Origin: Pseudohongiella sp.
GTDB lineage: Bacteria; Pseudomonadota; Gammaproteobacteria; Pseudomonadales; Pseudohongiellaceae
DNA: 35,755 bases
Reading direction: 5' to 3'
NCBI GenBank assembly: GCA_030696315.1
Contig: JAUYSM010000103.1
Location: forward strand, 1 to 35,755
Below the pieces are notes generated by a model that was not told where the DNA came from, did no database searches, and saw nothing but the letters and a program-made list of their open reading frames with translations. Both the position numbers and the translations under genes were made by a program. Positions within the stretch are counted from its first letter, which is position 1; each line of letters begins with the position of its first letter. Positions 205-33,648 of the stretch are shown piece by piece.

Positions 205-634
205 CTTTTTGACCCAGGCGCCGAGCCCACCAGAAACCCAGCAAAATCCCCACCGCATCCGCCAGCCAATCCATCACACTGCCACTGCGTCCCGGCACCA
301 TCATCTGAATAATTTCCGTCAGACCAGCGTAGGCCAACAGCATGGCGATGATAAACATTGCACCACGGGTCGCCAGCCACGCCCGACACACCAAAAATCC
401 ACACACGGCAAACATCATGCAATGCACCACCTTATCCGTCGGGAACTCCGAAGCAGACGGCGGCCTGACCGGCAACGCAATCATCAGCTTCAACCACTCA
501 ATCACCGGCCCCGGCGTTACCAACACCAGCAAAACAAACACCAGCGATCCTGCGGCAAGCACTTTAGGGGACGGAGGGATCAAATTTTGTACAGATGTCA
601 ACTTAAAAACTCCTTTTGGTTTACGACTGATCAT
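200..634 (-). CDS. VanZ-like membrane protein
   Basis: Small integral membrane protein of the VanZ-like family, whose general role is unknown; VanZ itself gives low-level teicoplanin resistance. Visible family marks are a DKVVH motif at residues 67-71, TEIIQ at 106-110 and GRSGSVMDWLADAVGILLG at 115-133, with hydrophobic segments near 26-48, 70-86 and 92-104 and a last one at 122-136. The N-terminus is doubtful. The ATG at 634 lies inside the dispersed palindrome, and the first 24 residues are non-hydrophobic and partly repeat-encoded. A GTG near residue 25 would start directly at the first membrane segment. With the ATG at 634, the start overlaps the LysR stop as ATGA. Family call secure, start not. 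Confidence 0.75.
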   Translation of the reverse strand: MISRKPKGVFKLTSVQNLIPPSPKVLAAGSLVFVLLVLVTPGPVIEWLKLMIALPVRPPSASEFPTDKVVHCMMFAVCGFLVCRAWLATRGAMFIIAMLLAYAGLTEIIQMMVPGRSGSVMDWLADAVGILLGFWWARRLGQKA

Positions 635-655
635 TTTTTGATCCCTCCGTCCCCT
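566..655. repeat. Dispersed palindromic repeat, locus 1 (split copy)
   Basis: The left arm starts at 567 and the right arm at 640. Instead of the usual 6-7 base core, about 57 bp separate the outer arms, and part of a second core (GATCATTTTTTGATC, 629-643) lies next to the right arm. It looks like two palindrome copies whose inner arms have been lost or replaced. The insert is the present N-terminal coding region of VanZ. The right copy also encodes the last residues and stop of LysR. Confidence 0.85.
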
Positions 656-1554
656 AGCAGGTCACGGCAGTGGGCCAGGAATTGGCGGGTGATGCGGGTC
701 ATGGGGGCGTGGTTGCTGGTGACAAAGGCGTACTGGTGGCGGATGTCGGGGCGGAATGGCCGCAGCACCAGGGCGTCACCGGCATATTGCCGGGCGAGCA
801 TTTCGTTGACAATAGCGATGCCGATATTGCCGCGCACCAGCGCGCACGCTGACCCGACGGTGTGGGTTTCAACGCGAATCTGCATGGGGATGTTGCGCTG
901 CGCAAAGGCCTGCTCAATGTCACGGCGAAAGCTGCGGCCTTTGCCCAGCAGGATCAGCGGTTGTTGATAAAGGTCCTGAACCGTGATCTCGGCCCGCGCG
1001 CTCAATGCATGACCGGCCGGCAACACACACACGGTGCCCGCTTCCAGCAGCGGCTCGGACACCAGCCCCGGGTACTCGATGGGCAGCTTGGTAAATCCGC
1101 AGTCTACCGCGCGCAGCGCAATCATCTTCAGCGAGGTCTCTACACCATGCGAATCCAGGCTGATGCTCACCTGCGGGTACATCCGTATGAAGGAAGACAC
1201 CACGCTCGACAACAGTCCTTCGGAAAAACTCGGCGGCGCCACAATCTTCAGCTCACCGTAATTGGCATTATGTAGATTGCGCGCCAGCTCGGTCACATGC
1301 TCCACGCTTTGCAGCGCAATCTCAACTTCAGGAATCAACAGTTGCGCTTCCTGCGTCGGCACCAGCCGGCCTTTTTCGCGGTAAAAAAGCTCCCCGCCCA
1401 CATCATCTTCCAGGATTTTCAACAACCTGCTGACACCCGGCTGCGTCAATTCCAGCTGACGCGCTGCCGCGGTGACCGAGCCGGTCTGCATGATGGCGCG
1501 AAAACACTCAAGGCTCTTCAGATTCATTTCCGGCAGCTTATTGTTCATCCACAT
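631..1554 (-). CDS. LysR-family transcriptional regulator
   Basis: DNA-binding regulator. An N-terminal winged helix-turn-helix spans about residues 10-68 (MNLKSLECFRAI, then SVTAAARQLELTQPGVSRLLK), followed by a substrate-binding domain from about residue 95 to the end. It is divergent from the TonB receptor gene with 130 bp between the starts, the usual arrangement for a LysR regulator and its target, so control of the receptor/transporter operon is a reasonable inference. The inducer is unknown. The C-terminus is odd: the last residues GDGGIKK and the stop are encoded by the palindromic repeat, so the native end was probably replaced. Start ATG at 1554 has a nearby GAGG; the ATG six bases downstream is also possible. 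Confidence 0.9.
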   Translation of the reverse strand: MWMNNKLPEMNLKSLECFRAIMQTGSVTAAARQLELTQPGVSRLLKILEDDVGGELFYREKGRLVPTQEAQLLIPEVEIALQSVEHVTELARNLHNANYGELKIVAPPSFSEGLLSSVVSSFIRMYPQVSISLDSHGVETSLKMIALRAVDCGFTKLPIEYPGLVSEPLLEAGTVCVLPAGHALSARAEITVQDLYQQPLILLGKGRSFRRDIEQAFAQRNIPMQIRVETHTVGSACALVRGNIGIAIVNEMLARQYAGDALVLRPFRPDIRHQYAFVTSNHAPMTRITRQFLAHCRDLLGDGGIKK

Positions 1555-1684
1555 CCAGCCTCAAAACCCATAACAATTTGTGATCGCCCTATACTCATAC
1601 ATCATAATATTGCATACATCAACTTTGCTACCTAAGATCAGTGGCGTTTTAATACCAATAACAGCCCCAACGGGAGTTCCCGCT

Positions 1685-4423
1685 ATGACGTACCGATCCG
1701 CCACGCTTAACCGTCGCCTGCCACTTTGTAACGCCATCGCTATTGCGATCAGCGGCATCACTGTTATCGCTGCCCCCGGCGTATTCGCCCAGCCAGATAG
1801 CGGCGTTCAGATTGAAGAGATTCGCATTGTCGGCTCCCGTATTGTGCGCCAGGATGAAGTCTCCACCAGCCCCGTGCAAACACTATCCGAAGCTGATCTG
1901 CGCGCCGATGGCTCCATGTCCATTGGCGAAACCCTGCAAAACCTGCCCTTTGTCGGCCCCAGCCTGAACAACAACGGCTCAGCGGGCACGAGTCACGGCA
2001 GCAGCAGCATGAATTTGCGCAACCTCGGCGAAAACCGCTCATTGGTGCTGGTCAACGGCCGCCGCTGGGTGAACGGCGCCGGTACCCGCGGGTTCCGCGA
2101 CTTTGTGGATCTCAACACCATCCCACAAGCCATGATTGAGCGCATTGAAGTGCTGCAGGATGGCGCCACCGCGGTTTATGGCGCCGATGCCATCGCCGGC
2201 GTGGTCAACATGCACACCTACCAGAATTTTGAAGGACTGCGCGTCAAAACCAACTATGGCGAAACCGGCGAAGGCGACCGCGAAACCATCGGCATCGACA
2301 TTCTGGCCGGCCGCACCTTTGGCAACAGCAACTGGACGGCCGCACTGACCCACGTTGACCAAAAAGCTATCATGACCCAGGATCGCGCACTGACCGCCAT
2401 CCCCTTAAACGGACTGAGTCTGGGCACACCGGAACTGCTGTTCCGCGAAAGCAGCCTTGCTCCTGTGGTCGGGTTTACCATTCCCACCAACGGCATTACG
2501 CGCGACCCGGGTGCCGACGGCAGCAACCGCGCCAACTGGCGCGCAGTGCGGGCCACGGATACCTATAACCGTTACGACAACAACTACGTTGTCGGCCCGC
2601 TCGAACGCACCTCACTGTTTATACAGAACACCACCGACTTCAGCGATGCATTGCAGTTCAACTTTGAAGCCCTGTACAACAAGCGCAAATCGGACCAGCA
2701 GTTCTCCGAGCCCTTGTCAGTGATTCAGGGCAGCCGTGGTTTCTCCATCCCGAATAACCCGGCCGTTAACCCCTTTGGTGTGACGTTTGCGGGCTCGGAT
2801 TTCCGTGTGACCGGTTTCCATACTGAAAATGGCTACCGCGTTAACGAGCAAGAGGTTGAGACACTGCGCCTGGGTGCCGGTTTCAGCGGCAAACTCGCCA
2901 ATGACTGGCGTTGGGATATGTTTTATTCATGGGCCGAGAACGAAGCTGAGTTCCGTTCTGTGAACCAAATGGATCTGGATCGTCTGGCACTCGGTATGCG
3001 CGCGTGCAGCACCACCGGCATCACGGCTAATGTCAGCGACCTGGCCAATGGCTGTGTGCCCATCAATCTGTTTAACCCCATGACACAAGCCATGGTGAAC
3101 TACACCAATTTTACCGGCAAAGATAAAAACGCTGCTGAACAAACGGACTTTACCGCTAACCTGACCGGCGACATCATGGAATTGCCGGCGGGTCCACTGG
3201 CATTTGCCGCCGGCATTGAATACCGGGAAGAGCTCGGTCGCGACATCGCAGACTCCTATATCAATGCCGCACCCAGGGTGAACACCTACCAGACCACCAG
3301 CTCCGCGCCCCGCGAAGGCACCAACGGCAAGTACGACCTGTCTGAAGCTTACGTGGAACTGAGTGTGCCCTTGTTGGCAGATCAGGCATTTGCCAAAGAT
3401 TTGCGTGTGGATCTGGCCACCCGTTTCTCTGACTACAGCACTTTTGGTGATACCACCAACAGCAAAGTCGGTGTGGTCTGGCGCCCGGTGGAAGATCTGA
3501 TGTTGCGCGCTACCTGGGCCGAAGGTTTCCGCGCCCCCTCTATTCTGGAATTGTTTGAAGGTGCCCGTTCAACCTCTATCCCGGTTACCGACCCCTGCAG
3601 CGGCGGCGGTGCTGGCCTGATTGGATGCCAGGGCGTACCCGGCTCCTACATACAGCCGGAAGCGGCAGTGTCTGCCAGCGTTGGCGGCAATCGTAATCTG
3701 AACCCGGAAACCTCAGAGAACATCTCCTACGGTTTTGTGTTCACGCCCTCGGCCTTACAAGGTTTCAGTGTCACCATGGACTGGTATGACATCCAAATTG
3801 ATAACACCATCAGCACCTTTGGTGCGCAGAACCTTCTGAACCTCTGCGCCAGCACCGGCCAGCGCTGCAACTTTATCGTACGTGACAGCAGCGGCGAAAT
3901 TCAGGATCTGGCAGACGGCCCGATCAACCTGAACAGCACCCACGTGCGTGGCGCTGACCTGGTGACGCGTTACACACAAGACAACCGCTTCGGCGCTTGG
4001 GAATACTCACTGGGCGTGTCCAAGCTGAGCGAAATTACCGAGGAATCCACGTTGCCCAACGGCACCATTCAGGTCAACAAAAAGCTCGGTAAAGCGCTGC
4101 TGCGTGAAGCCTTCCCGGAACTGCGTGCCAACTTCTCGGTGAGATGGCGACTGGATCAGTGGTCAGCCAATTACTCGGCACGCATGATCGGCGATACCGA
4201 TGAAACCGTTGCCGGCGCACCGCGCCACATTGGCACCATGACCTACCACAACGCTGCACTGGGTTATGAGTTCAGCGACGCACTCAGTGGTCGCCTGGGT
4301 ATCGACAATCTGGCGGACAAAATGCCACCCGTATCACTGGTCAACACCAACATCAACTTTGACCAGAATACCTATAACGCCATGGGTCGTTACCTGTATC
4401 TTCAGCTGAACTATTCACTGTAA
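1685..4423 (+). CDS. TonB-dependent outer-membrane receptor (912 aa)
   Basis: Outer-membrane active-transport channel energised by TonB. I place the start at ATG 1685, because GGGAG sits 8 bases upstream and a clear signal peptide follows, with a likely cut after GVFA near residue 35. The frame is open upstream to 1580, but that stretch does not look like protein. After the signal come IEEIRIVGSRI and a plug domain (about residues 50-185) with the family motifs NLRNLGENRSLVLVNGRR and ATAVYGADAIAGVVN. The rest is a beta-barrel ending YLYLQLNYSL. No STN domain and no carboxypeptidase-like domain are present. Genes downstream (transporter, alpha/beta hydrolase) suggest an organic substrate such as a peptide, ester or amide rather than a siderophore. 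The substrate cannot be read from the sequence. Confidence 0.93.
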   Translation: MTYRSATLNRRLPLCNAIAIAISGITVIAAPGVFAQPDSGVQIEEIRIVGSRIVRQDEVSTSPVQTLSEADLRADGSMSIGETLQNLPFVGPSLNNNGSAGTSHGSSSMNLRNLGENRSLVLVNGRRWVNGAGTRGFRDFVDLNTIPQAMIERIEVLQDGATAVYGADAIAGVVNMHTYQNFEGLRVKTNYGETGEGDRETIGIDILAGRTFGNSNWTAALTHVDQKAIMTQDRALTAIPLNGLSLGTPELLFRESSLAPVVGFTIPTNGITRDPGADGSNRANWRAVRATDTYNRYDNNYVVGPLERTSLFIQNTTDFSDALQFNFEALYNKRKSDQQFSEPLSVIQGSRGFSIPNNPAVNPFGVTFAGSDFRVTGFHTENGYRVNEQEVETLRLGAGFSGKLANDWRWDMFYSWAENEAEFRSVNQMDLDRLALGMRACSTTGITANVSDLANGCVPINLFNPMTQAMVNYTNFTGKDKNAAEQTDFTANLTGDIMELPAGPLAFAAGIEYREELGRDIADSYINAAPRVNTYQTTSSAPREGTNGKYDLSEAYVELSVPLLADQAFAKDLRVDLATRFSDYSTFGDTTNSKVGVVWRPVEDLMLRATWAEGFRAPSILELFEGARSTSIPVTDPCSGGGAGLIGCQGVPGSYIQPEAAVSASVGGNRNLNPETSENISYGFVFTPSALQGFSVTMDWYDIQIDNTISTFGAQNLLNLCASTGQRCNFIVRDSSGEIQDLADGPINLNSTHVRGADLVTRYTQDNRFGAWEYSLGVSKLSEITEESTLPNGTIQVNKKLGKALLREAFPELRANFSVRWRLDQWSANYSARMIGDTDETVAGAPRHIGTMTYHNAALGYEFSDALSGRLGIDNLADKMPPVSLVNTNINFDQNTYNAMGRYLYLQLNYSL

Positions 4424-4459
4424 GCCTATGCAGGACTAACGCGGAGCACCGGGGCCACT

Positions 4460-5872
4460 ATGAAAGATGAAACAGCGGAGAAGCTGAGCAAACAGACCAA
4501 TCCCATTATTGTGTTGCTGGGCATCCTGATGCTGGCAACCTTGCTCACCTATCTGGTGGACTCGGGCAGCTACCAACGCGACGGCCGGCTGGTAGTGCCG
4601 GACAGTTACACGGTCATTGAAAAAGACCGCTCGCTGTCCAACCTGTTCAGCCTGCACACAGGGGTGCCGGCATCTGAAAACGGGCAAGCCACCGCGCGCC
4701 CGGTCAGTGTTGTCGGCACATTGATGTCAATTCCGACCGGCCTGGAACGAATGGCCGGTCTGATTTTTATGGTGCTGTTGATCGGCGGCATGTTTGGCAT
4801 TATGACCAAGTCTGGTGCCATTGATGCCGGGCTGGAACGGCTGCTGGGCACCGTGCGCGGCAACGTGTACGTGCTGGTGCCAGGATTGATGATCATTTTT
4901 GCGGCCGGCAGCACATTTTTAGGGCTGGCCTCAGAATATCTGCTGGTGATCCCACTGATGGTTGCCATGGCCAATCGCCTGGGCATGTCCAATCTGATGG
5001 GGCTAGCCATTGTCACCATTCCGGTGAAAGCCGGTTATCTGTCGTCGGTCACCAATCCACTGCCACTGACCATTGCACAGCCGCTACTCGGACTGCAGGT
5101 GTTCAGCGGAGCGGGTCTGCGTTTTGTGTATTTTCTGATTTTTACCCTCGTTGGCATCGCATTTATGCTCTATATGATCCGCCGCGCTGGTTTTGATCAT
5201 TCGGTGAAGATAAGTTTTGGCACCGACCAGTTGTCCACGCGCCATACCGCCATGTTGTTGGTGTTGCTGGCGGGTATTGCCGGTATTGTGTACTTCTCTA
5301 ACGAACATGGCTGGGGGCATACCGAACTGTCCAGCTTCTACATTGGACTGGCGATCATACTGGCCGCAATCAGCGGACTGGGTGCCAGCGGCTCGGCCGA
5401 CGCTTTTGTGTCCGGCATGAAAAAAATCCTCATGGCCAGCATGTTAATTGGCGTGGCTTCGGCCGTTGCCGTGACGCTGGAGAACGGGCGGGTGCTGGAC
5501 TCCGTGGTGCATGGCCTCACCAGTATTATCGGCACTGATAATGCCTACGTCTCAGCAGCTGGCATGTTTGGTTCACAATTGATGCTCGACTTTCTGATCC
5601 CGTCCACCTCCGGGCAGGCCGCGGTCGCCATGCCAATTCTTGGCCCCTTAGGGCAGCTAACCGGCGTGCCGCCCCAGACGACGGTGTTGGCATTTCTGTT
5701 TGGCAACGGTATCACCAACATGTTGACGCCCACCTCCGGTACATTGCTGGCGTATCTGGCAGCCGCACAAGTGGGCTGGGTGCAGTGGGCAAAATTTATT
5801 GTGTGGTTGTGGGCGATATACATTGTGCTGGCATTGATGATGCTGACTTATGCCGTGGCAATTGGCTACTGA
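4460..5872 (+). CDS. YfcC-family inner-membrane transporter
   Basis: Polytopic membrane protein of the YfcC/DcuC-like family (C4-dicarboxylate anaerobic carrier-like). At 470 residues it has family length. There are about 11-12 hydrophobic segments, beginning at residues 14-32 after a charged N-terminus. The family signature IPSTSGQAAVAMPILGPL lies near 376-393, and a matching NMLTPTSGTLLAYLAAA near 417-433. Members are annotated as basic-amino-acid or dicarboxylate carriers, mostly without direct proof. It begins 36 bp after the receptor stop and ends 13 bp before the hydrolase start, so all three are probably co-transcribed. I infer that it takes the product released by the hydrolase, or the intact substrate, across the inner membrane. 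Confidence 0.88.
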   Translation: MKDETAEKLSKQTNPIIVLLGILMLATLLTYLVDSGSYQRDGRLVVPDSYTVIEKDRSLSNLFSLHTGVPASENGQATARPVSVVGTLMSIPTGLERMAGLIFMVLLIGGMFGIMTKSGAIDAGLERLLGTVRGNVYVLVPGLMIIFAAGSTFLGLASEYLLVIPLMVAMANRLGMSNLMGLAIVTIPVKAGYLSSVTNPLPLTIAQPLLGLQVFSGAGLRFVYFLIFTLVGIAFMLYMIRRAGFDHSVKISFGTDQLSTRHTAMLLVLLAGIAGIVYFSNEHGWGHTELSSFYIGLAIILAAISGLGASGSADAFVSGMKKILMASMLIGVASAVAVTLENGRVLDSVVHGLTSIIGTDNAYVSAAGMFGSQLMLDFLIPSTSGQAAVAMPILGPLGQLTGVPPQTTVLAFLFGNGITNMLTPTSGTLLAYLAAAQVGWVQWAKFIVWLWAIYIVLALMMLTYAVAIGY

Positions 5873-5885
5873 ACAGGAAAGATTC

Positions 5886-7736
5886 ATGAGCACAATTCTG
5901 GTGTTGAGCAATGTCATGGTGCCGATGCGCGATGGTGTGCAGCTGGCGACTGACATCTATCTGCCGGACACCGGAGGCAGCATCTGGCCTGTCATTATGG
6001 AACGCACTCCTTACAACAAAGCCGGTGTCAGCCGCTCTGAATGCTCCTTGCAAGAACCGACACCACGTACCCGCGCCGCCGTCGCGATGGACTTTGCCGC
6101 CCATGGTTTTGCGGTGGTCATGCAGGATTGCCGGGGGCGTTATGGTTCAGAAGGCACCTTCACCAAATATCTTAATGAAGCCGAAGACGGTTACGACACC
6201 CTGCTGTGGTTAACACAACAAGCCTGGTGTAACGGTCGCATCGGCACCATGGGCTTGTCCTACGGCGCGCATACCCAAAGCGCCCTCGCCTGCCTGAATC
6301 CGCCCGGATTGGCCTGTATGTTTATGGACTCTGGCGGATTTTCCAGTGCTTATCATGGCGGTATCCGACGCGGTGGCGCCTTTGAATTAAAACAGGCCAC
6401 CTGGGCCTACAAACATGCGTTGCTCAGCACCGATCTGGCGCGCGATCCGCAGCGCCTGAAAGCTCTGCAAAGCGAAGATATCAAGCAGTGGTTTTTGCAG
6501 ATGCCGTGGTATCCCGGGCACTCGCCGCTGCGCCATTCGCCGGAATACGAGCAATACTTTTTTGAGCAGTGGCAACACGGTCAGTTTGATGACTATTGGA
6601 AAAAACCCGGCCTGTATGCGGAAGGCTTCTACGATCAGTTTCCGGACGTGCCAGTCACTATTATCGGTAGCTGGTATGACCCCTATGTGCGCACCTGCCT
6701 GAATAACTTTTCCGGACTGGCTGCGCGCAAGAAGTCGGCGATGAATCTGATTATGGGGCCGTGGACACATGGCGACAGGTCGCGCAGTTACGCAGGCGAC
6801 GTCGACTTTGGTGCGGCATCCGTGCTGGATGGCAACATTGCCACCGACTACTTTCAGATGCGCCTGGACTGGTTCAAGCGCTGCTTACTGAGTGCGCCAT
6901 CTGAAAAAACGGACACGCCACAGCGCCAGGTCAGTTATTTCACCATGGGCGGCGGGTCTGGACTACGCAATGCACACGGGCGTTTGCAACATGATGGCCA
7001 CTGGCAACACAGCGGGCAATGGCCGCCTGAAAATCTGCAACCGGCGCAACTATTGTTGTGTGCGGATGGCATGCTGCGCATGGACAACATCGTGTCGACA
7101 GATGAACATGTTTATACCGCTGCTCCGGACACTGGCAACACACACGAGGATTTTCTGGAATTTGTATTCGACCCGGCCAATCCGGTACCTACAATGGGCG
7201 GCGCGCTGACCTCCGGCGATCCGGTGATGTTTGGCGGCGCCTTTGATCAACAAAGCGATAATCGCGACGATGTGCTGGTCTTTCAAACACCGGTGCTGAC
7301 AGAAGATCTGGAAGTCACCGGCGCCATCGAGGCGCATTTGTGGATTTCCTCTGACCAGCCAGACACCGACTTCACCGTAAAACTGATCGATGTTTACCCA
7401 CCCTCCGACGACTATCCACGAGGTTACGCCATGAATATCACTGATGGGATACTCCGCGTCCGCTACCGAGAAGGTTTTGATCGCGAAGTCATGATGACCC
7501 CCGGCACCATCTACAAAATAGTGATCGAACCGTTTGCCAGCAGCAACCGCTTCTGCAAAGGCCACCGCCTGCGGCTCGACATCTCCAGCAGCAACTTTCC
7601 GCACTTTGATATCAACCCCAACACCGGCGCCCCTGAAGGCAGCGCCGGCGAACGACGCCGCGCACGCAACCGCGTGTACTGCTCCGCGCGCTACCCCTCT
7701 TGCTTACTGGTAGGGGACGGAGGGATCAAAAAATGA
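5886..7736 (+). CDS. CocE/NonD-family alpha/beta hydrolase
   Basis: Serine hydrolase of the CocE/NonD (X-Pro dipeptidyl-peptidase-like) family, which cleaves acyl esters or peptide bonds. Start ATG 5886 is chosen because AGGAAAG lies 4 bases upstream; an in-frame ATG at 5850 lies inside the transporter gene. Visible are the nucleophile elbow GLSYGAH with Ser125, a GSWYDPY segment likely holding the catalytic Asp, and MGPWTHG with the likely catalytic His. A jelly-roll C-terminal domain follows from about residue 410. No signal peptide is apparent, so the enzyme looks cytoplasmic and would act after uptake by the preceding transporter. The end is unusual: after the family-typical ARYPSCLL the protein continues as VGDGGIKK and stops inside the palindromic repeat, so the native last residues are missing. 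Confidence 0.9.
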   Translation: MSTILVLSNVMVPMRDGVQLATDIYLPDTGGSIWPVIMERTPYNKAGVSRSECSLQEPTPRTRAAVAMDFAAHGFAVVMQDCRGRYGSEGTFTKYLNEAEDGYDTLLWLTQQAWCNGRIGTMGLSYGAHTQSALACLNPPGLACMFMDSGGFSSAYHGGIRRGGAFELKQATWAYKHALLSTDLARDPQRLKALQSEDIKQWFLQMPWYPGHSPLRHSPEYEQYFFEQWQHGQFDDYWKKPGLYAEGFYDQFPDVPVTIIGSWYDPYVRTCLNNFSGLAARKKSAMNLIMGPWTHGDRSRSYAGDVDFGAASVLDGNIATDYFQMRLDWFKRCLLSAPSEKTDTPQRQVSYFTMGGGSGLRNAHGRLQHDGHWQHSGQWPPENLQPAQLLLCADGMLRMDNIVSTDEHVYTAAPDTGNTHEDFLEFVFDPANPVPTMGGALTSGDPVMFGGAFDQQSDNRDDVLVFQTPVLTEDLEVTGAIEAHLWISSDQPDTDFTVKLIDVYPPSDDYPRGYAMNITDGILRVRYREGFDREVMMTPGTIYKIVIEPFASSNRFCKGHRLRLDISSSNFPHFDINPNTGAPEGSAGERRRARNRVYCSARYPSCLLVGDGGIKK

Positions 7737-7750
7737 TCACTCCGTCCCCT
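7712..7750. repeat. Dispersed palindromic repeat, locus 2 (single copy)
   Basis: One full palindrome: arm GGGGACGGAGGGATCA from 7713, an A-rich core, and the complementary arm from 7735 with one change (GATCACTCCG). The core ATGA at 7733-7736 is both the hydrolase stop and the CapA-like start. A degenerate half arm (CAGTCCCC) follows at about 7757-7764. Confidence 0.9.
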
Positions 7751-8854
7751 AAAAGACAGTCCCCTGAGAGACATACCGTCAAACGACGGGATATCCTGCG
7801 CTGGTTTGGTATTGCGGCAATGATGCCACTGGGTGTACCGGTGCTGGCGCAGACCAACGGCGTCGCGAGTGGCCGTGCGCCAGGTCTGACCCGCGTGACA
7901 CTGGCGGGCCAGGCATTAATGAAGTATCCACTGTGCTCTCAGCCTTACGACGGTCTTGCCGAGGTGATTTCAGAGCTGCGCAAAGGCGACATCATTTTCA
8001 CCAATCTTGAGGTCGCCATTCAGACGGAGGCGTCGGGCGCACCGACCCGGGATACCGAGTTCTTCCACGCGGGCTCGCAACAGACGCTGGATTGTCTGCA
8101 CACCATGGGGTTTAACCTGGTGGCGCTGAGTAATAATCACGCGTTTGATCTGGGAACGGAGGGCATTGTTGCCACCCGTGATGCCGTTGCAGCCGCCGGT
8201 TTTGTGCACGCAGGCACCGGCGACAATGTTGCGCAAGCCAGTGCTCCCGGCTATCTGCAAGCACCGGCCAATGCAGCCTTGGTCTCCATGGCTATGGGCA
8301 AAATCCGTGAAGGCGGTGCAGCCACCGAGCAGCGTCCGGGGGTGAACGAAGTCCGTCTTGGCGCTGATCTGAAACCAAATGCCGAAGATATGGCCCGCAA
8401 TCTGGCGTCCATCGCTGAGGCCAAGCGCCACGCTGCGCTGGTGGTAGCCTACCTGCATAATCACGAATGGGGCGACGACATGGCGATCACCAAACCGTGG
8501 GCACGCGATTTTGCCCGCCAATGCATCGACGCCGGTGCCGACATTTTTGTCAGCCACGGCGCACCCTTGGTCCACGCAATCGAAATGTACAAAGGCAAAC
8601 CGATGCTACATGGACTCGGCAGCCTGGTATTCCACTCACACACCGACGTCGGGTACTACGTCCCTGAGGTGTGGGAAAGTGCCATCATTCACCTCGACTT
8701 TGACGGTGACACCTTACGCAATCTGGAAATTGTCCCGCTTTGGACCAACGAGCTTGGCGACGACCCCGATAGCCACTGGCCCACCCGCGGCCGCCCCCGC
8801 CTCGCCCACGGCGAACAAGCCGACCGCATCCGCAGGCGTTTGACCGGCTTTTAA
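7733..8854 (+). CDS. CapA-like metallophosphatase-fold protein, Tat-exported
   Basis: Member of the CapA/PgsA family (PGA_cap, calcineurin-like fold). Family motifs are FTNLEVAIQ, LVALSNNHAFDLG, LHNHEWGDD and VSHGAPLVHAIEMYKGK followed by HGLGSLVFHS. An N-terminal KRRDILRWFG followed by a hydrophobic stretch and VLAQT is a good Tat signal, so it acts outside the cytoplasm. The family GD motif that normally supplies the first metal ligand reads TLAGQALM here (Gln for Asp). The only start I can find is ATG 7733, inside the palindrome, giving a repeat-encoded first six residues (MITPSP) and an ATGA overlap with the hydrolase. No acceptable start lies closer to the twin arginines. CapA homologues can act in poly-gamma-glutamate synthesis or as peptide/nucleotide hydrolases, and its role here is open. 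Confidence 0.82.
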   Translation: MITPSPKRQSPERHTVKRRDILRWFGIAAMMPLGVPVLAQTNGVASGRAPGLTRVTLAGQALMKYPLCSQPYDGLAEVISELRKGDIIFTNLEVAIQTEASGAPTRDTEFFHAGSQQTLDCLHTMGFNLVALSNNHAFDLGTEGIVATRDAVAAAGFVHAGTGDNVAQASAPGYLQAPANAALVSMAMGKIREGGAATEQRPGVNEVRLGADLKPNAEDMARNLASIAEAKRHAALVVAYLHNHEWGDDMAITKPWARDFARQCIDAGADIFVSHGAPLVHAIEMYKGKPMLHGLGSLVFHSHTDVGYYVPEVWESAIIHLDFDGDTLRNLEIVPLWTNELGDDPDSHWPTRGRPRLAHGEQADRIRRRLTGF

Positions 8855-8865
8855 TAGGTTTTTAT

Positions 8866-8935
8866 AGGGGACGGAGGGATCATTTTTTGATCAGCCAGGG
8901 GACGGAGGGATCAAAAAATGATCCCTCCGTCCCCT
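8866..8935. repeat. Dispersed palindromic repeat, locus 3 (arm plus palindrome)
   Basis: Arms in the same orientation start at 8867 and 8898, exactly 31 bp apart. The second is closed by its complementary arm from 8920. The locus fills the gap between the CapA-like gene and the next membrane protein. Its core ATG at 8918 is in frame with that gene. Confidence 0.9.
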
Positions 8936-8980
8936 CATTATTTGCTACAGTCCACGTTATCTCACTGTGGAACGGCCATC

Positions 8981-10094: not shown

Positions 10095-10103
10095 AAATCA
10101 CTG

Positions 10104-10127
10104 ATGGGGGCGAATGGTCGCCCCCAT
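10104..10127. terminator. Hairpin between convergent genes, probable terminator
   Basis: ATGGGGGCGA (10104-10113) pairs perfectly with TCGCCCCCAT (10118-10127) around an ATGG loop. It fills the 39-bp gap between the cytochrome and the minus-strand receptor. On the minus strand the stem is followed, after CAGTGA, by five T residues, so it may work weakly for the receptor operon. The plus-strand side has no T tract. Confidence 0.55.
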
Positions 10128-10133
10128 ACTGTG

Positions 10134-12794: not shown

Positions 12795-12868
12795 TTCCGT
12801 TCTCCGTAATTGAATCAGGATTTCAATTAAGGTGACGGAAAGCGTTGTCAGCCCCCTACCAAATTATT

Positions 12869-17859: not shown

Positions 17860-20355
17860 TCACAATTGCGCACGGTTGAGGGCATCAAGCACAACTTGCG
17901 GGCGCAGGGGTATCTGCCGCATCCGCACAGCGGTGGCGTCAAAGACGGCATTGCCGATCGCTGCAGCAACCGGTTTATGGGCGGCCTCGCCCGCGCCCAA
18001 AGGTGGCATGTCGGGCCGGTCCAGCAACAGCACCTGCAGTTGATCCGGTGCTGAAGCCATCTCAAGAATCGGATAACTGAACCAGTCAGTACTGAGTACA
18101 CTGCGATCATCAAACGCCACCTGTTCAAACAGCGTTCGACTGCAGGCCTGCATCACCGCCCCTTCAATGGTCTGCCGCAGACCATCCGGGTTGATCACCC
18201 GCCCACAGTCATGCGCTACTACCAGACGTAACAGCTTTATCCGTCCGGTTTGTATGTCAACTGCCAGTTCACACACCACTGCTACGCGCGTCTGGCGCCC
18301 ACGCTGACAATACGCCACACCTCGTCCATAGCGCCAGTTGTCACCCGGAAGTAGACTATAGGTAACTGGCAGACTTGTTCGCAGATCAGCATGCGGATTA
18401 GGGGATGGCCGGCTTGACCAGGCGGATTCGGTGGCAAGCGCACGCAACAGTTGCGCATCACGCTCATCACCAAGATGGCGCAACCTGAAGGCAATGGAAT
18501 CCTGTCCACTGACAAACGCCAGTTCATCCATAAAACATTCACTTGAAAATGTGACTTGTGGCCCCTGAGGGTCGCGAAGGTGCGAAGTGCGTAGCGGTGA
18601 CACATGTCTGAGTGGCGGCGGAACCACAGCCCACTGGCTGCGACGGTTAGCAAGGTCATACGCATCCTGCGGTGCACTGAAGTTATTGGTGTCGGGCCGC
18701 TCCAGGCCTAATTGCTGGCCGATCAGTGAGTCAGATGCCTGGGCTCCTGATGGACGGGCATCGTGTGCTGATAGCGCCAGTGCTGACCAATCCATGGCCG
18801 CAATACTGCCATCCGCCAACAGACGGGCGCTCACCCGCATGACAGCGGCGGGCGACTTGGGGTCCCATCCGGTAGCATCTGCGCGTTGATACTGAACACG
18901 CACCGCTCGACCGGTCTCACGCGCAAGAAATGCGGCTTCCAGACCGGCATCATCCGCATCATTACGACCATAGGATCCAGCGCCTGGCACCCAGATCACA
19001 TGCACCTTGACCAGCTCCAGTTCCAGCAGATCAGCGACGCCAACGCGCAACTGGTGAGGTTTCTGCGTCGCTGACCAGACCGTCATGCGCTGGCCATCCC
19101 ACACCGCCACGGCGCAGGCCGGGCCCAGACTGGCATGAGACTGCAGAGGCCATTCATACTCCGCCTGCAGCACAGGCCCTGCTTCTGCAAGGTCTGCAGC
19201 AGAGAGGCCCGTAGCAGAGAGGTCGGCAGTAGAGAGGTCTGCAGCAGAGAGGTCGGCGGTAGAGAGGTCGGCGGTAGAGAGGTCGGCAGTAGAGAGGTCG
19301 GCACCCGCGAGCACGGCATCAACAGCACCCTGATCGAGCGCCACGCGTTGCATCCGCGCGGGTGTGTTTCGCAAATAATCATACAGGCCGCTATCACCAG
19401 GAAACACCGGCGCGGGCTCCTGCCATGTCTGCTGCAATGCACGCGATGCCATAATAACGCGCCACTCATCCTCACCCAGCAACGCGGCAAACGCCGCTCT
19501 GCGCACAATAAAAACATCATTGATCATGTCATCCGGCAACACCAGTGTGAGTGGAGTTGCACCTGCCACCTGCGGTCGTATCACCCGCGCATGCAGCATA
19601 TCCGGCAGGCTGATCTGATCGATCATCACAAACTCGCCGGTGACTTTCTGATGAATATCATCGCGCGCTAAAGACTGTCCGGTCCAACTGTCAGTAGACA
19701 ATGCTGCCTGAGGCACCACCGTTGCCTGACCGGTAACATTCAGACTGTTGCCCTGCCCGCTAACCTCAAGCATGTGTGCAAGCCAGTGCTGATCCAGCGC
19801 ATCAGAGGCAATCAGCGTCCAGTAACTGCTGCGCTGTGACGGCAGGGTGTCACAGAATATCTCTCCATCCTCCACATGTAAGGATGAAAAAGGGCACTGC
19901 CACTGCTGCGCAATGTGTGACAGCAGGATATGTTTTACTTCTGCTGCGACAGTCATCAGCGGCAGACTGCCCATTTCTACGCCGGAGGCACTGCTTGCAC
20001 CGCCCTGATCTGGCGTCAGTTCTGTGTCACCCATCACTACCTGAATGCGCCGCGGATGCACTGACAATTGATCTGCCACCAACTGACGAATCGCAGTATC
20101 AAGGCCCTGACCTACATCCACTTTGCCGAAGTACACGGTGACACGCCCAGCAGCATCCAGTGCAATCCATGTGCCTAACACCGCGGGGTCAGGTTCATTG
20201 AATTTATTGTTGCTTGCAATTGCGTCAGTCGCGCTCACGCCACTCGGGATTGCTGTACACGACAACACTGGAAATCCTGCCGCTGCAACCAGAAATCGCC
20301 CGCCACTCAACAGAAATTGCCTGCGTGTCAGGTGAGCGTGGAGCAAGGCGCTCAT
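17860..20355 (-). CDS. Molybdopterin-binding hydroxylase large subunit (IorB-like)
   Basis: Catalytic subunit of a two-subunit molybdenum hydroxylase of the xanthine oxidase family, closest in layout to isoquinoline 1-oxidoreductase beta and aldehyde dehydrogenase relatives. Start ATG 20355 overlaps the stop of the FeS subunit as ATGA. It gives MSALLHAHLTRRQFLLSGG, a twin-arginine signal with a hydrophobic run, so export is likely. The in-frame extension to 20412 lies inside the FeS gene. The C-terminal PPLGAGEAAHKPVAAAIGNA carries the family's active-site Glu (about residue 790). The usual Gly-rich GGGFGRR site reads GAGSYGRN. Residues 351-390 are an in-frame run of ADLST-type pentapeptides. 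The native substrate is unknown; N-heterocycles or aldehydes are typical. No chaperone (XdhC) or cytochrome gene is adjacent. Confidence 0.85.
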   Translation of the reverse strand: MSALLHAHLTRRQFLLSGGRFLVAAAGFPVLSCTAIPSGVSATDAIASNNKFNEPDPAVLGTWIALDAAGRVTVYFGKVDVGQGLDTAIRQLVADQLSVHPRRIQVVMGDTELTPDQGGASSASGVEMGSLPLMTVAAEVKHILLSHIAQQWQCPFSSLHVEDGEIFCDTLPSQRSSYWTLIASDALDQHWLAHMLEVSGQGNSLNVTGQATVVPQAALSTDSWTGQSLARDDIHQKVTGEFVMIDQISLPDMLHARVIRPQVAGATPLTLVLPDDMINDVFIVRRAAFAALLGEDEWRVIMASRALQQTWQEPAPVFPGDSGLYDYLRNTPARMQRVALDQGAVDAVLAGADLSTADLSTADLSTADLSAADLSTADLSATGLSAADLAEAGPVLQAEYEWPLQSHASLGPACAVAVWDGQRMTVWSATQKPHQLRVGVADLLELELVKVHVIWVPGAGSYGRNDADDAGLEAAFLARETGRAVRVQYQRADATGWDPKSPAAVMRVSARLLADGSIAAMDWSALALSAHDARPSGAQASDSLIGQQLGLERPDTNNFSAPQDAYDLANRRSQWAVVPPPLRHVSPLRTSHLRDPQGPQVTFSSECFMDELAFVSGQDSIAFRLRHLGDERDAQLLRALATESAWSSRPSPNPHADLRTSLPVTYSLLPGDNWRYGRGVAYCQRGRQTRVAVVCELAVDIQTGRIKLLRLVVAHDCGRVINPDGLRQTIEGAVMQACSRTLFEQVAFDDRSVLSTDWFSYPILEMASAPDQLQVLLLDRPDMPPLGAGEAAHKPVAAAIGNAVFDATAVRMRQIPLRPQVVLDALNRAQL
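19186..19305 (-). repeat. 15-bp tandem repeat encoding ADLST pentapeptides
   Basis: Seven clear 15-bp units beginning AGAGAGG start at 19201, 19216, 19231, 19246, 19261, 19276 and 19291, with a degenerate eighth at 19186. Read on the minus strand they encode ADLST or ADLSA units in frame in the IorB-like protein. The pattern fits the pentapeptide-repeat consensus A(D/N)LXX. Near-identical DNA units point to recent expansion and possible length variation. Confidence 0.9.
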
Positions 20356-20885
20356 GATGCCGCAACCTGCTCGACCGCCGCACGAAAGCGCATCTGCATC
20401 GCGCATCGACATTTGAGGCCAGCAAACGCCTGATTTATCGCGTCACGGTCGGGCATCGGATTCTCTTCCAGCAACGCTACCGCAGACATCAACCATCCGT
20501 TAATGCAATACCCGCACTGCGCAGCCATCTGATCAATGAAGGCTTGCTGAAGCGGATGCAAACTCTGATGTTGTGTCGTGTCCGTTAAGCCAGGTTCACC
20601 TGATGCTTTTGCAAGCTGTGCCTGCCAGCGCGCCGGCAATCCGGCAATAGTAACCACGTCCTGTCCGTCCACTGCCGCGGTTGGGAGTTGGCAAGAACGG
20701 ACCGGACGCCCTTCAACAAGCACCGTGCAAGCACCACACTGTCCCAAACCACACCCAAAACGAGGATTCCGCAGGCGGAGCGTATTCCTCAGTGTGTACA
20801 ACAACGGCATCGACGGATCTACTTCAGGAGTGAAAAGCAGACCGTCGACGACCACTGAAACAGTTGAACTGGCTGTCCTTGACAT
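20352..20885 (-). CDS. [2Fe-2S] subunit of molybdenum hydroxylase (IorA-like)
   Basis: Electron-transfer subunit that passes electrons from the molybdenum centre. Start ATG 20885 has GGGAG 7 bases upstream; the in-frame ATG at 20924 lacks one. The 177 residues hold two clusters: a plant-ferredoxin-type set at Cys45, Cys50, Cys53 and Cys65 (RFGCGLGQCGACTV), and a helical-domain set at Cys124, Cys127, Cys159 and Cys161 (CGYC, then CRC). All eight ligands are present. The stop overlaps the large-subunit start as ATGA, which fits 1:1 production. It is the first gene of its operon and faces the amidase-fold lipoprotein gene. Confidence 0.92.
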   Translation of the reverse strand: MSRTASSTVSVVVDGLLFTPEVDPSMPLLYTLRNTLRLRNPRFGCGLGQCGACTVLVEGRPVRSCQLPTAAVDGQDVVTIAGLPARWQAQLAKASGEPGLTDTTQHQSLHPLQQAFIDQMAAQCGYCINGWLMSAVALLEENPMPDRDAINQAFAGLKCRCAMQMRFRAAVEQVAAS

Positions 20886-23341: not shown

Positions 23342-23380
23342 TCTGCCACCGGGAGTGACCCGAGGGTTCTGAGGATCAAT

Positions 23381-23420: not shown

Positions 23421-23437
23421 CAAACATGATCGAGCCT

Positions 23438-24490: not shown

Positions 24491-24600
24491 GCGTTTACCT
24501 TCCTTGATGAGTCTTGATAGGGGTCTTGATAGTGGCCTTGATAGGGGACGGAGTGATTGGATTGGGGACGGAGGGGTTTTTTAGGGGACGGAGGGATCAT
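24487..24600 (-). CDS. 37-codon leader ORF made of the repeat
   Basis: It opens at the ATG in the palindrome core (overlapping the APS-kinase stop as ATGA) and reads through the 20-bp repeat array (MIPPSPKKPLRP at the start). It ends with TGA overlapping the epimerase ATG, again as ATGA. Composition is low-complexity (Pro, Gln, Tyr, Ser). It has no sign of protein family. If translated it would couple APS kinase and epimerase translation; otherwise it is a by-product of the repeat. Confidence 0.35.
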   Translation of the reverse strand: MIPPSPKKPLRPQSNHSVPYQGHYQDPYQDSSRKVNA

Positions 24601-24621
24601 TTTTTGATCCCTCCGTCCCCT
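24503..24621. repeat. Dispersed repeat, locus 4 (12-bp and 20-bp stacks plus palindrome)
   Basis: Short CTTGAT-led units begin at 24503, 24513, 24525 and 24537. Three same-direction arms follow, starting at 24544, 24564 and 24584, exactly 20 bp apart. The last is closed by its complementary arm from 24606. The first two arms have drifted (GAGTGATT, GAGGGGTT). The locus overlaps the last codons of APS kinase. Confidence 0.85.
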
Positions 24622-25175
24622 GTCAAGGCCCCTACCAAAGTCAAAAACGCCAACACACGTGCAGCACTTTGTGCGGGGGTCTCCCCTTCTGTGGAAAGAT
24701 GCAAGTCTGGGGCGGTGGGTACTTCGTAGGGCGAGTCTATGCCAGTGAAATGGCGAATCTCACCCGCCCGTGCCCGGCGGTACAAACCCTTGACATCGCG
24801 CTGTTCCGCGACGGCCAGCGGTGTATCGACAAACACCTCGTAGAAACGGCCATAAGGTTCAAGCAGCGCCCTGGCCTGCGCCCGTTCCGCAGCAAATGGG
24901 GAGATAAACGCAGCAAGCACAAACTGCCCCGCGCCGAGCAGCAATCCGCACACCTCTGCCGCTCGTCGAATATTCTCCGCGCGATCCTTCGCCGTGAACC
25001 CAAGATCACGGCATAAACCTTTGCGCAACACATCGCCATCCAGACGCACCAACGCTCGCCCCTGAGCACGCAACGCCTGCTCCAGCTCAACGGCAATGGA
25101 TGTTTTCCCTGCACCGGACAGACCGGTCAGCCACACCACAAATGGTTTTGTGTCGATGTTTTTCATGGGCCGCAT
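24597..25175 (-). CDS. cysC: Adenylylsulfate (APS) kinase
   Basis: Phosphorylates APS to PAPS, the sulfate donor for sulfotransferases and for assimilation. The Walker A motif GLSGAGKT is at residues 18-25, followed by family motifs LDGDVLRKGL and DRAENIRRAAEV, then EVFVDTPLAVAEQRDVKGLY and FTGIDSPYE. Start ATG 25175 (MRPMKN) is chosen for GAGGA 4 bases upstream; an in-frame ATG in the repeat at 25214 would add 13 residues. The C-terminus is repeat-encoded: after LTLVGALT the protein ends GDGGIKK. No ATP sulfurylase (cysDN or sat) is nearby, so this is an isolated kinase among nucleotide-sugar genes. PAPS supply to the sulfotransferase at 32206 is an attractive inference. Confidence 0.9.
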   Translation of the reverse strand: MRPMKNIDTKPFVVWLTGLSGAGKTSIAVELEQALRAQGRALVRLDGDVLRKGLCRDLGFTAKDRAENIRRAAEVCGLLLGAGQFVLAAFISPFAAERAQARALLEPYGRFYEVFVDTPLAVAEQRDVKGLYRRARAGEIRHFTGIDSPYEVPTAPDLHLSTEGETPAQSAARVLAFLTLVGALTGDGGIKK

Positions 25176-25196
25176 TCTATCCTCAAAATTGATGTT

Positions 25197-25286
25197 TGGG
25201 GACGGAGGGATCATTTTTTGATCACTCCGACCCCAAACAAATCCCTCCGTCCCCTACCTGTACATTTTTTGATCCCTCCGTCCCCT
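25197..25286. repeat. Dispersed repeat, locus 5 between APS kinase and UDP-glucose dehydrogenase
   Basis: One arm from 25198 is closed at 25220. Further same-direction arms follow at about 25240 (20 bp on) and 25271 (31 bp on). Both spacing classes occur in one array. The locus lies between divergent starts, so both promoters must be in or beside it. The plus-strand gene has only about 46 bp between array and ATG. Confidence 0.9.
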
Positions 25287-25332
25287 AAAAAACAGCTACA
25301 ATCGGGCCATACAGATCACATATAGGGACATC

Positions 25333-26499: not shown

Positions 26500-26510
26500 C
26501 AGGGTTTGAT

Positions 26511-26600
26511 GGGGGACGGAGGGATCAAAATTTGATCCCTCCGTCCCCTATCAAACCCCTCCGTCCCCTACCTGTTCATTTTTTGATCCCTCCGTCCCCT
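26511..26600. repeat. Dispersed repeat, locus 6 between convergent genes
   Basis: One arm starts at 26512 and is closed at 26534. Same-direction arms follow at 26554 (20 bp, drifted) and 26585 (31 bp). Read on the minus strand, an ACCTTGTTAGG duplication (about 26601-26617) leads into the array and gives the TAG stop of the GDP-fucose synthase. Confidence 0.9.
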
Positions 26601-27534: not shown

Positions 27535-27535
27535 C

Positions 27536-28654
27536 TCAGACATCCAAAGGAACAGACACATCATGGCCATGGCGTCGCAACAAAGCATGCCGTTTGGCTA
27601 GTTTTAAATCCTCGGCGACCATTTCAGCACACGTCGCCTGCGCGCTCATCACCGGCGACCAACCCAATTTCTGCCTGGCCTTACTGGCATCCCCCAACAG
27701 TGACGCCACCTCCGCCGGCCTGAAATAACGTGGATCCACGCGCAACACCACATCGCCAATCTTTACCGCAGGTGCATGGTCGCCCTTTATATGCTCGACT
27801 ACCGCAATTTCAGACACCCCCTGCCCCTCAAAGCGCAAAGTCATGCCCAACTCAGCCGCCGACCAGCGCACAAAGTCACGCACCGAGTGCTGCACACCGG
27901 TAGCAATTACAAAATCCTCCGCCACCTCTTGCTGCAACATCAGCCACTGCACCTCCACATAATCGCGCGCATGACCCCAGTCACGCAGCGCATCCAGATT
28001 CCCCATATAAATGCAGCGCTCTAGCCCCTGCCCAATATTGGCCAGACCCCGTGTGATCTTGCGCGTCACAAAGGTTTCTCCCCGACGTGGCGACTCATGA
28101 TTAAACAGAATGCCATTGCAAGCATACATTCCGTAGGCCTCGCGATAATTGACCGTGATCCAGTAAGCGTAGAGCTTGGCAACCCCATACGGCGAGCGCG
28201 GATGGAACGGCGTGGTTTCCGTCTGAGGAGACTCCTGCACCAAGCCGTACAACTCTGAAGTCGACGCCTGATAAAAACGCGTTTTATGCTCCAGACCCAG
28301 CAAACGAATGGCCTCCAGCAACCGCAAAGTGCCCATGGCATCCACATCGGCCGTATATTCCGGCGCCTCAAAACTCACCGCCACGTGCGACTGCGCACCC
28401 AGGTTATACACCTCATCCGGCTGCACCTCCTGCAAAATCCGGGTCAGATTGGAGGAATCGGTCAGATCGCCGTAGTGCAGCACAAACTGCTGATTGTCCA
28501 CGTGCGGATCCTGATAAATATGATCAACCCGCTGCGTGTTAAACAAAGACGCACGCCGCTTGATGCCATGCACCTCATAACCCTTGCCGAGTAAAAACTC
28601 CGCAAGATACGAACCATCCTGACCGGTGATCCCGGTAATCAACGCCTTCTTCAC
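27536..28654 (-). CDS. gmd: GDP-mannose 4,6-dehydratase
   Basis: First step from GDP-mannose towards GDP-L-fucose or related deoxysugars. It starts at GTG 28654 (then [13 protein letters not shown]), because AGAAGG lies 8 bases upstream and this is the family's usual N-terminus. A GTG at 28663 is too close to that site. The cofactor motif TGITGQDG is at 7-14. The catalytic set is Thr132 and Glu134 (QASTSELYG) with Tyr156 and Lys160 (SPYGVAK). GDP-mannose-binding [16 protein letters not shown] is present. The 372-aa length is normal. The fucose synthase follows immediately, so the two act and are translated together. Confidence 0.94.
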
Positions 28655-28676
28655 GTGCTGCACCTTCTTTTTGGGG

Positions 28677-28796
28677 AGGGGACGGAGGGATCAAAAAATG
28701 ATCCCTCCGTCCCCAAATTACCAAAATTTGATCCCTCCGTCCCCTACCTGGTCATTTTTTGATCCCTCCGACCCCAAAGCGGTGCCTCCGACCCCT
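28677..28796. repeat. Dispersed repeat, locus 7 (largest degenerate array)
   Basis: An arm from 28678 is closed at 28700. Same-direction arms follow at 28730 (30 bp), 28761 (31 bp) and about 28781 (20 bp). The last two use the CCGACCCC variant. The array lies directly upstream of the GDP-mannose dehydratase start. Its plus-strand frame is open (MIPPSP-like units) but shows no protein character. Confidence 0.9.
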
Positions 28797-29105
28797 GGGG
28801 CGCACCAGAATAGTTCGCCGGGGTCGCCACGGGATTTGCAGGTGATTTTGAAGGCGGGACGGCCTCTACGTATGCGCCAGGACTGAATTGCGTGGTCTGA
28901 GAGCAAATCCCTTTATAAACCAATGTGTTAATTATGCGAGCGGTTGATTTGCAAAGTCGGTAGCTTGCGCTGTTTTCTACGTTATTAAACCTAGCGTACT
29001 CAAACTTCGCAATTGACTGGCATGAATAGTGCGTCACAGAGCTTGTCAGCTACATCAAGGTCTACCTCCAACAAGACATCAGCTACAACAATGTGAGGAC
29101 ACAAC
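28797..29105. other. 309-bp intergenic region, possible decayed RAYT start
   Basis: No gene is evident. Just after the repeat array, 28848-28878 reads AGRPLRMR, then stops. This resembles the N-terminus (ARPLR) of REP-associated tyrosine transposases, and following bases can be read with indels as a weak continuation. The rest up to the receptor start is AT-rich leader. No promoter with convincing -35 and -10 boxes was seen, though one for the downstream receptor should be here. Confidence 0.3.
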
Positions 29106-32204: not shown

Positions 32205-32205
32205 T

Positions 32206-33648
32206 ATGAGGACTTGGCAGCTGGCGTCTCAGCTGGCTGCTGATTCACGCAACTGGCCAGAACTCAGACGTATTGCCACAAGCTGGACCCAGACACACCC
32301 GTCATGCGTAGAGGCATGGCGGGCCTTGTCTCGCGGGTATTTTGAAGACTCCCATTTTAACGAAGCCATTTCCGCTTACTCACACATATTAGACCTGGAA
32401 CCTGGCAATGCCAGCCATCTGGTCAGCGCAGCGCGTCTGGCGACGGCAGGCTTGCAGCATGAATCTGCGCGCAGCTATCTGATGGCCGCCGAAGCGCTGG
32501 CACCTGATTCCGGTGAAGTGCTGTACGCGCTCAGCCGACTGTATCACCTCACCGGCGAACTCGACAAAGCTGAAGACTATTGCCGTCGTGCAATCCGCGT
32601 GTTGCCGGGGTTTGTGCCTGCGTATACCGCGCTTGGGTTATTGACCGAAGGCCGGCTGACTGAGTCAGAAATAGCGATGGTTGTCCGCCTGATTAACATG
32701 CCCGGGCTGCATCCCGAGTACCGGGCCATGCTGTGCTTTACCTTAGGCGACGCACTCGATCGCAAAGGTGACTACGCGCAGGCCTTTGCGGCGTGGGGTC
32801 AGGCCAATGCGATCAACAGCCAGATATCCGCGCAGGAAGGTTTTGTGTATGACGCTGCGCAGCATGAAGCGGACGTCATCATTCTTGAACAGTTGTTTAA
32901 TGAAAGTTTTGCGTCTGAAAACACGTTGGGTGATGGCGTAAAACCAATCTTTGTGCTTGGCATGCCGCGCTCGGGTACCACATTGGTAGAGAGCATCCTG
33001 GCATCACACTCGGCTGTGTATGGCGCTGGTGAACTGCCCACTCTGCCGGCCATTTATGAAGAACTGATGGACATCGCCCGCCGACAAGGCATCGCGGCTG
33101 CGCAAGACGCGGTTCGCACGCGCGCACATGAGTGGCGGGCGCGTTATCTGGCAGCACTGCCGTCCAGCCCGGGCTGCACCTACACCGTGGACAAACAGCC
33201 ACTGAACTACCGCTGCATCGGGCTTATCCGCTTGTTGTTTCCGGATGCCCCGATCATTTACACACAACGCTCGGCTGAGGAAGTGGCACTCTCCATTTAC
33301 CGCCACAACTTCTCCAAAAACTGGCCATGCGCCCACAAACTCAGCGACATCCGCCACTACTTCGGCGTCCACCAACGCATGGTTGCGCTCTGGCAAACGC
33401 GCCACCCCGACGCAATTCACGTGCTTGACCACATCGCACTGGTCGAAGACCCCGACGCCGAGATCCGCAGCCTGCTTGCATTCACCGGCCTGCCACTCGA
33501 ACCAGCCTGCCTCACCCCCCACAAAACCAAACGCCGCGTCGCCACCTTCAGCTCCGTGCAAGTGCAACGCCCCGTGTCCGCCAGCTACACCGGCCGCGCC
33601 GCGCTCTACGCTGCTTTTTTGGGAGGGGACGGAGGGATCATTTTTTAA
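32206..33648 (+). CDS. TPR-containing sulfotransferase
   Basis: PAPS-dependent sulfotransferase with an N-terminal tetratricopeptide region. Residues 1-140 hold about three TPR-like units (AISAYSHILDLEPGN, then LYALSRLYHLTGELDKAEDYCRRAI). The 5'-phosphosulfate loop FVLGMPRSGTTLVESIL is at 249-265. The 3'-phosphate motif IYTQRSAEEVALSIYRHNF follows. Start ATG 32206 is one base after the receptor stop without its own ribosome site, so translational coupling is likely. The ORF is open upstream but only inside the receptor. The C-terminus is cut: homologues continue after a W-YE-YL-PL-type segment, but here RAALYAAFL runs into GGDGGIIF, encoded by the repeat. The acceptor could be a protein or glycan. 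Confidence 0.88.
   Translation: MRTWQLASQLAADSRNWPELRRIATSWTQTHPSCVEAWRALSRGYFEDSHFNEAISAYSHILDLEPGNASHLVSAARLATAGLQHESARSYLMAAEALAPDSGEVLYALSRLYHLTGELDKAEDYCRRAIRVLPGFVPAYTALGLLTEGRLTESEIAMVVRLINMPGLHPEYRAMLCFTLGDALDRKGDYAQAFAAWGQANAINSQISAQEGFVYDAAQHEADVIILEQLFNESFASENTLGDGVKPIFVLGMPRSGTTLVESILASHSAVYGAGELPTLPAIYEELMDIARRQGIAAAQDAVRTRAHEWRARYLAALPSSPGCTYTVDKQPLNYRCIGLIRLLFPDAPIIYTQRSAEEVALSIYRHNFSKNWPCAHKLSDIRHYFGVHQRMVALWQTRHPDAIHVLDHIALVEDPDAEIRSLLAFTGLPLEPACLTPHKTKRRVATFSSVQVQRPVSASYTGRAALYAAFLGGDGGIIF

Follow-up and report, generated by a model that had tools for sequence, protein, structure and literature searches.

The window, a stretch of 35,755 nucleotides from Pseudohongiella sp., forms contig C87 of a draft genome of 3.96 Mb in 117 contigs, and it carries a short repeat that runs into the ends of several protein-coding genes. 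The repeat is a 37-nt palindrome formed by GGGGACGGAGGGATCA, five mostly A/T bases and TGATCCCTCCGTCCCC, and it is also found as single half-sites, as arrays with a 31-bp period and as longer inverted repeats. An earlier note on this DNA had described repeat-encoded C-terminal tails on a LysR protein, a CocE/NonD hydrolase, an APS kinase and a sulfotransferase, and all four are confirmed in the sequence. The LysR gene (631-1548, minus strand) closes with ..LLGDGGIKK and TGA (631-654), supplied by the right arm of an 88-bp element with inverted arms (567-654) that genome G025 has at the same place. The hydrolase gene, ending at 7736 on the plus strand, closes with ..LVGDGGIKK and TGA (7713-7736) within a palindrome with one mismatch (7713-7749). 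A perfect palindrome with two degenerate half-sites (24544-24620) holds the APS kinase tail, ..LTGDGGIKK and TGA (24597-24620; gene 24597-25214, minus strand). The sulfotransferase gene, ending at 33648 on the plus strand, closes with ..LGGDGGIIF (33625-33648) at an array of 31-bp period that has a palindrome at its end (33625-33723). The notion that each of these genes stops at a TGA inside the palindrome holds for the hydrolase and the APS kinase, where it is the 37-nt form; the LysR TGA lies in an arm of the 88-bp element, and the sulfotransferase stop is a TAA in a half-site.

The remaining copies in the window lie at or near gene boundaries of other kinds. A half-site and palindrome (8867-8934) follow the TAA of gene 7820-8854 by 12 nt. 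A cluster between convergent genes (26512-26599) provides at its edge the TAG of the GDP-fucose synthase gene (d=-1), as had been claimed, while the TAG of the oxidase, attributed to the same cause, is 18 nt off the cluster and, by eye, borders on one more degenerate half-site. Another cluster (28678-28795) is 23 nt from the called start of gene 27536-28654 (minus strand), and a palindrome with three tandem half-sites occupies 34994-35123. On the 5′ side of the APS kinase gene a cluster (25198-25285) encodes the MIPPSP start of the long open reading frame; this repeat-derived start is probably not the true one, as the matches in genomes G031 and G032 begin at residue 12. Of a different nature is a 15-bp tandem repeat at 19164-19313, encoding ADLST-like pentapeptides within the long open reading frame 17860-20412.

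In the genome as a whole we count 108 core 12-mers, 101 exact 16-mers and 40 full palindromes. The window is 0.9% of the genome yet has 28 of the 108 cores, and its 32 matches to the 16-mer with up to three mismatches, as against 0.19 expected, put the number of repeats far beyond chance. The exact 16-mer is present in 9 of 137 genomes of the family, many times in our own genome, G023 and G029 and one to three times in the six others. The outer sequence of the half-site is often GTA or TA followed by GGGGWCGGAG, with GTA before GGGG in 26 and TA before GGGG in 52 of the 101 half-sites, and the inner core is lineage-specific. Strong folds are predicted for the palindromes that close the hydrolase and APS kinase genes (-33.6 and -38.3 kcal/mol, z -5.7 and -5.4), and the half-sites that end the LysR and sulfotransferase genes do no better than shuffled sequence, in a stretch that excluded the distant LysR arm. 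A search of the window against Rfam gave no family at gathering scores. At several sites the flanks are palindromic, which suggests that copies may have been inserted in the loop of existing terminators. Elsewhere in the genome, a 1.9-kb segment with a SfLAP-family protein (L044:6875-8759) has at its borders 36-bp inverted repeats, an extended form of the half-site, and may be a larger mobile unit. A lone half-site at L037:7214-7229, also found in G023, G025 and G031, places TTGATC 17 nt before TATACT in our own genome and, by eye, may be part of a promoter.

Twenty fetched stretches and the window together hold all 101 exact 16-mers, and among these copies, to which the count refers since degenerate copies elsewhere in the genome may be missed, eight gene ends are tailed: four with GDGGIKK and one each with GDGGIIF, GDGGIKN, GDGGIKI and GVGEIKK. 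Outside the window the bearers are RapA (GDGGIKN), an MFS transporter (GDGGIKK), a RAYT-like transposase (GDGGIKI) and a PQQ dehydrogenase (GVGEIKK). The proteins with tails come from unrelated families, and their C-terminal domain models extend essentially to the protein end ahead of the tail. Relatives have related tails at nine gene ends (ten half-sites), and the tails vary with the species as the DNA core varies (GVGEIKK, GDGEIKK). Alignment to relatives, which the earlier note had proposed as a measure of the native residues lost, gives two lost and seven gained for RapA, and for the hydrolase 11 residues after RYPS where G025 and G029 have 13 others. Where relatives show another end, then, the loss of native sequence is small by comparison of the sequences; for LysR, the APS kinase and the sulfotransferase the relatives found have their own element at that gene end.

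Upstream of the hydrolase end, contig C568 of G029 is 81% identical to window positions 4202-7699, while other G029 stretches are 94-98% identical and one 86%, a divergence for which gene exchange is a possible cause. Stretch L054, whose record is named as a Rhodoferax MAG, and contig C85 of G031 (8811 each) give identical match scores, and L054 seems to be of the window's genus.

The association with stop-codon regions is borne out across the genome. With genes called by codon score (our own calls) and repeats grouped into 57 clusters, 4 lie inside genes, and 38 of the 53 non-internal clusters fall between -25 and +35 nt of a 3′ end, as against 11.9% of random intergenic positions in the same stretches (p=6e-24). 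Indeed 19 of the 53 start 1-15 nt past the nearest gene end. The 5′ ends show no excess, with 14 of 53 clusters equally near and 15.8% of the random positions (p=0.056). Close to an element 14 of 36 stops are TAG, compared with 16 of 170 elsewhere (p=5e-5), in keeping with the frequent TA before GGGG.

The product of the repeat depends on the frame in which it is entered. Frame f0 yields GDGGI-xx and then, after seven residues, TGA or TAA; f1 yields the hydrophilic GTEGSKND.., or an immediate TAG where a T precedes the edge; f2 has two AGG codons and no stop, and is absent from the called genes of our own genome. AGG is used 1.7 times per 1000 codons, and the two rare codons are a plausible explanation of the rarity of f2. 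At gene ends of our genome we find 8 f0, 2 f1 and 0 f2, a proportion of at least 8 in 10 with p=0.0034 at one-third chance; when the two TAG-edge genes are added this becomes 8:4:0 (8 of 12 in f0, p=0.019). The idea that gene ends favour the frame that stops at once thus stands on the full count, while the cases outside the window, free of the four that raised it, give 4 of 6 and are not significant (p=0.10, by hand). We consider the frame bias likely to be real. The picture named beforehand as contrary to it, with three frames equal and most copies away from stops, was not found.

Inside genes of our own genome, all four half-sites are in f1. In the relatives, counted with cores GGGG[A/T]CGGAG[A/G/T]G and with the G028 core left out, gene ends have ten f0 half-sites (nine gene ends) and two f2; inside genes there are 18 in f1, one of them, HAFDLGTEGIVATRD in L109, left out as a likely chance match since our own gene reads the same residues without the element. 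The internal cases in relatives come from four sites, two in rapA and two in ligA, and the relatives' counts are not independent because many sites are orthologous.

Comparison with relatives shows that sites are shared while sequences are not. We followed 23 clusters, from the window, L037 and L040, all near elements of our own genome in a repeat-rich region and with at most 700 bases between flanks, and recovered both flanks in at least one relative of another core type for 15. At all 15 junctions at least one such relative has an element, nearly always of its own type: G025 at 15 of 15, G031 at 9 of 9, G032 at 8 of 8 and G028 at 6 of 7, the miss being the rapA end. The core is GGGGTCGGAG in G025, GGGGACGGAGAG in 14 of 15 G031 cores and 16 of 16 G032 cores, and GGGGACGGAGGA in 8 of 9 G028 cores. 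The shared sites include the elements inside rapA and ligA, which keep one reading frame, and the flanks adjoining the element are often rearranged. In RapA the internal elements are in linkers of variable length; species without an element there have mostly shorter linkers, with G026 (first site) and G021 having long linkers of other sequence. No empty site differing solely by the element was found among these comparisons. Position is thus conserved across species beyond what a purely neutral model asks for, and either re-insertion at tolerant spots or conversion in place would fit these shared sites.

A candidate mobiliser lies within the densest cluster of repeats (20 cores in 5.6 kb), at L040:10707-11387. 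This gene encodes the RAYT-like transposase of the Y1 (HUH tyrosine) class whose own C-terminus is the tail GDGGIKI, and inverted copies of the element flank it on both sides. The protein matches the Y1_Tnp profile with 55.8 bits; its best NCBIfam match is NF047646 (REP_Tyr_transpos) with 72.5 bits, under the cut-off of 80, and we therefore do not claim it as a member of that equivalog. In an alignment of 12 sequences, 4 of 16 having been dropped by a filter, NHVH is present in 11 (NHLH in the twelfth) and the Tyr of Y-x-E-x-NPVRA in all 12; we take these to be the HUH motif and the catalytic Tyr of this transposase. A second Y1_Tnp gene, at C38, has no element copies in the surrounding 13 kb and was rejected as the mobiliser. 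Toxin-antitoxin-like pairs (FitA-like/PIN, HipA/HTH, Phd/PIN and MazE/PIN) lie in a cassette-like manner between element copies, the first close to the transposase at L040:8345-8987 and the others on contig C78 at L046:138-1651, 1906-2420 and 4124-4784. An integron-like cassette array, with small toxin-antitoxin genes split by the repeat near the RAYT gene, was set aside by eye.

In the genus we compared 15 genomes, counting our own. A RAYT of at least 52% identity is present in 9 and palindromes of this type in 6; 5 of these 6 have a RAYT of at least 73% identity, and 5 of the 15 have neither. G029 has 12 palindromes and no close RAYT in its 700-contig assembly, and G033 has only a partial RAYT match with no palindromes nearby. 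The orthologues in G028, G024 and G020 have palindromes on either side that share the outer GGGGACGGAG and differ in their inner parts. Furthermore, seven RAYTs from other bacteria (L055-L061) have 41-45% identity. Six of them (L055-L060) lie between inverted repeats of the GGGGTC type, one arm being cut by the contig end in L055, and L061 has direct copies upstream only. In G025, a 54-kb span that includes the RAYT gene, and that was chosen after seeing the data, has 9 of the 21 palindromes, and four more are grouped within 40 kb of contig C1, at a distance from that gene. G032 has the 3′ part of ligA, the transposase, the APS-kinase block, the start of the window and rapA on one contig, and therefore the window probably adjoins the RAYT locus in the chromosome.

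We propose, at a probability of roughly 80%, that the shared tails arise as a by-product of selfish palindromes, a REP-like family that is probably mobilised by a RAYT and whose copies survive where they are harmless. The RAYT-like Y1 transposase at L040, we infer, moves the copies, which would insert blind to frame. Those in harmful frames would then be lost, and new copies would persist chiefly in flexible linkers and at stop codons or shortly after them. An f0 insertion would cap the gene end with little loss because a stop is met after seven residues, while an f1 copy, being hydrophilic, could sit within proteins. The frame pattern would on this reasoning reflect survival of harmless insertions and neither targeting nor benefit. 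The earlier note had suggested selection for, or targeting to, stop-codon regions, and that the tails might alter protein stability. That GDGGIKK is itself useful or regulated as a stability tag seems to us very improbable. The recurrence of related tails in our own genome and in relatives would fit such a role, and the available text of PMC7246954 relates C-terminal composition to bacterial protein expression; against it, the same sequence is found in copies downstream of stops, the tails change with the DNA core of the species, and the proteins are unrelated. A-rich (Lys) centres, moreover, occur in 7 of 8 tails and in 22 of 32 gene ends followed by a copy (four other centres dropped), a preference that is not significant (p=0.41). 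These comparisons give no indication that the tail is selected, and dispersal with survival of harmless frames suffices. Against our main reading stand the conservation of position across species, the NCBIfam score under the cut-off, the scarcity of GTA before GGGG, the palindromes of G029 with no close RAYT in its assembly, the G025 group away from the RAYT gene, and the frame excess, which is not significant outside the window and has f2 at two gene ends of relatives.

Selection on the RNA is a more credible possibility, still a tentative one, and is compatible with a REP origin. Hairpins kept at stops may block 3′ exonucleases and, within 15 nt of the stop, stall ribosomes, both being effects known from REPs of E. 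coli, and the tails would then be those cases in which the stop lies inside the hairpin. The many clusters 1-15 nt past gene ends, the strong folds at the hydrolase and APS kinase genes and the conservation of positions across species are consistent with this, whereas the copies inside rapA and ligA and the poor folds of the LysR and sulfotransferase half-sites (the distant LysR arm excluded) argue against it. We are rather doubtful that the sites are fixed and inherited, rewritten in place to the core of each species' RAYT so that orthologous sites are homogenised, with f0 at the ends of coding sequence and f1 inside. Less likely again is a MITE of a classical DDE transposon with terminal repeats of about 36 bp and a TA target duplication, in which the RAYT would be a passenger: the inverted repeats around the SfLAP-family segment and the common TA before GGGG would suit it, but elsewhere such RAYTs have related GGGGTC repeats at their borders, and the cores change together with the RAYT orthologue.

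The RAYT-mobilised palindromes favoured here have clear counterparts. In the available text of PMC2817692 (Nunvar 2010) and PMC3733652 (Di Nocera 2013), GTAG REPs and REPtrons likewise comprise short palindromes and inverted pairs around a Y1 transposase gene; the parts of PMC3733652 available also describe REPs that crowd 3′ ends, supply TAG stops from their own ends and insert in frame within genes, including a DNA ligase gene, different REPs at about the same recB site in two Xanthomonas species, and REP arrays adjoining EPS genes. Here, in contrast, GTA precedes GGGG in only a quarter of the half-sites, the stem is 16 bp compared with 5-13 bp in the table of that paper, and one f0 tail recurs across unrelated proteins. 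The TIRtrons and TIRYTs of the same source, as far as its text was available, resemble our case in having Y1 genes bounded by terminal inverted repeats and moderately abundant repeat families, and some of its TIRs, not all, contain GGGGWSAS; our own element, GGGGACGG, is one base off this motif, while L056, L057, L059 and L060 read GGGGTCAG and fit it, as do the direct copies of L061. Rickettsia palindromic elements, which in the same available text code in frame inside proteins, are similar in that respect, but RPE-4 and RPE-6 are placed there among CGTC repeats without association with a transposase gene, which is present here. REPs of E. coli also form hairpins directly downstream of stops, and a study cited in the available part of PMC12306157 concerns their translational effects within 15 nt of stop codons; the difference is that in eight cases here the element itself supplies the stop. 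Our literature search found no report of one tail common to unrelated proteins, nor of this palindrome, which is no proof of absence.

Gene-end palindromes are thus of a known kind, and what is seen here is that related species have them at shared sites, each with a sequence of its own. These shared sites with their own core types are the least expected result. Six genomes of one genus together with our own, with 15 shared junctions and several core types, form a natural data set for asking if a REP site is invaded anew or converted where it stands. A single family of selfish palindromes can give unrelated proteins a common C-terminus, and C-terminal motifs common to a proteome should be viewed with caution, as they can be repeat DNA rather than function.
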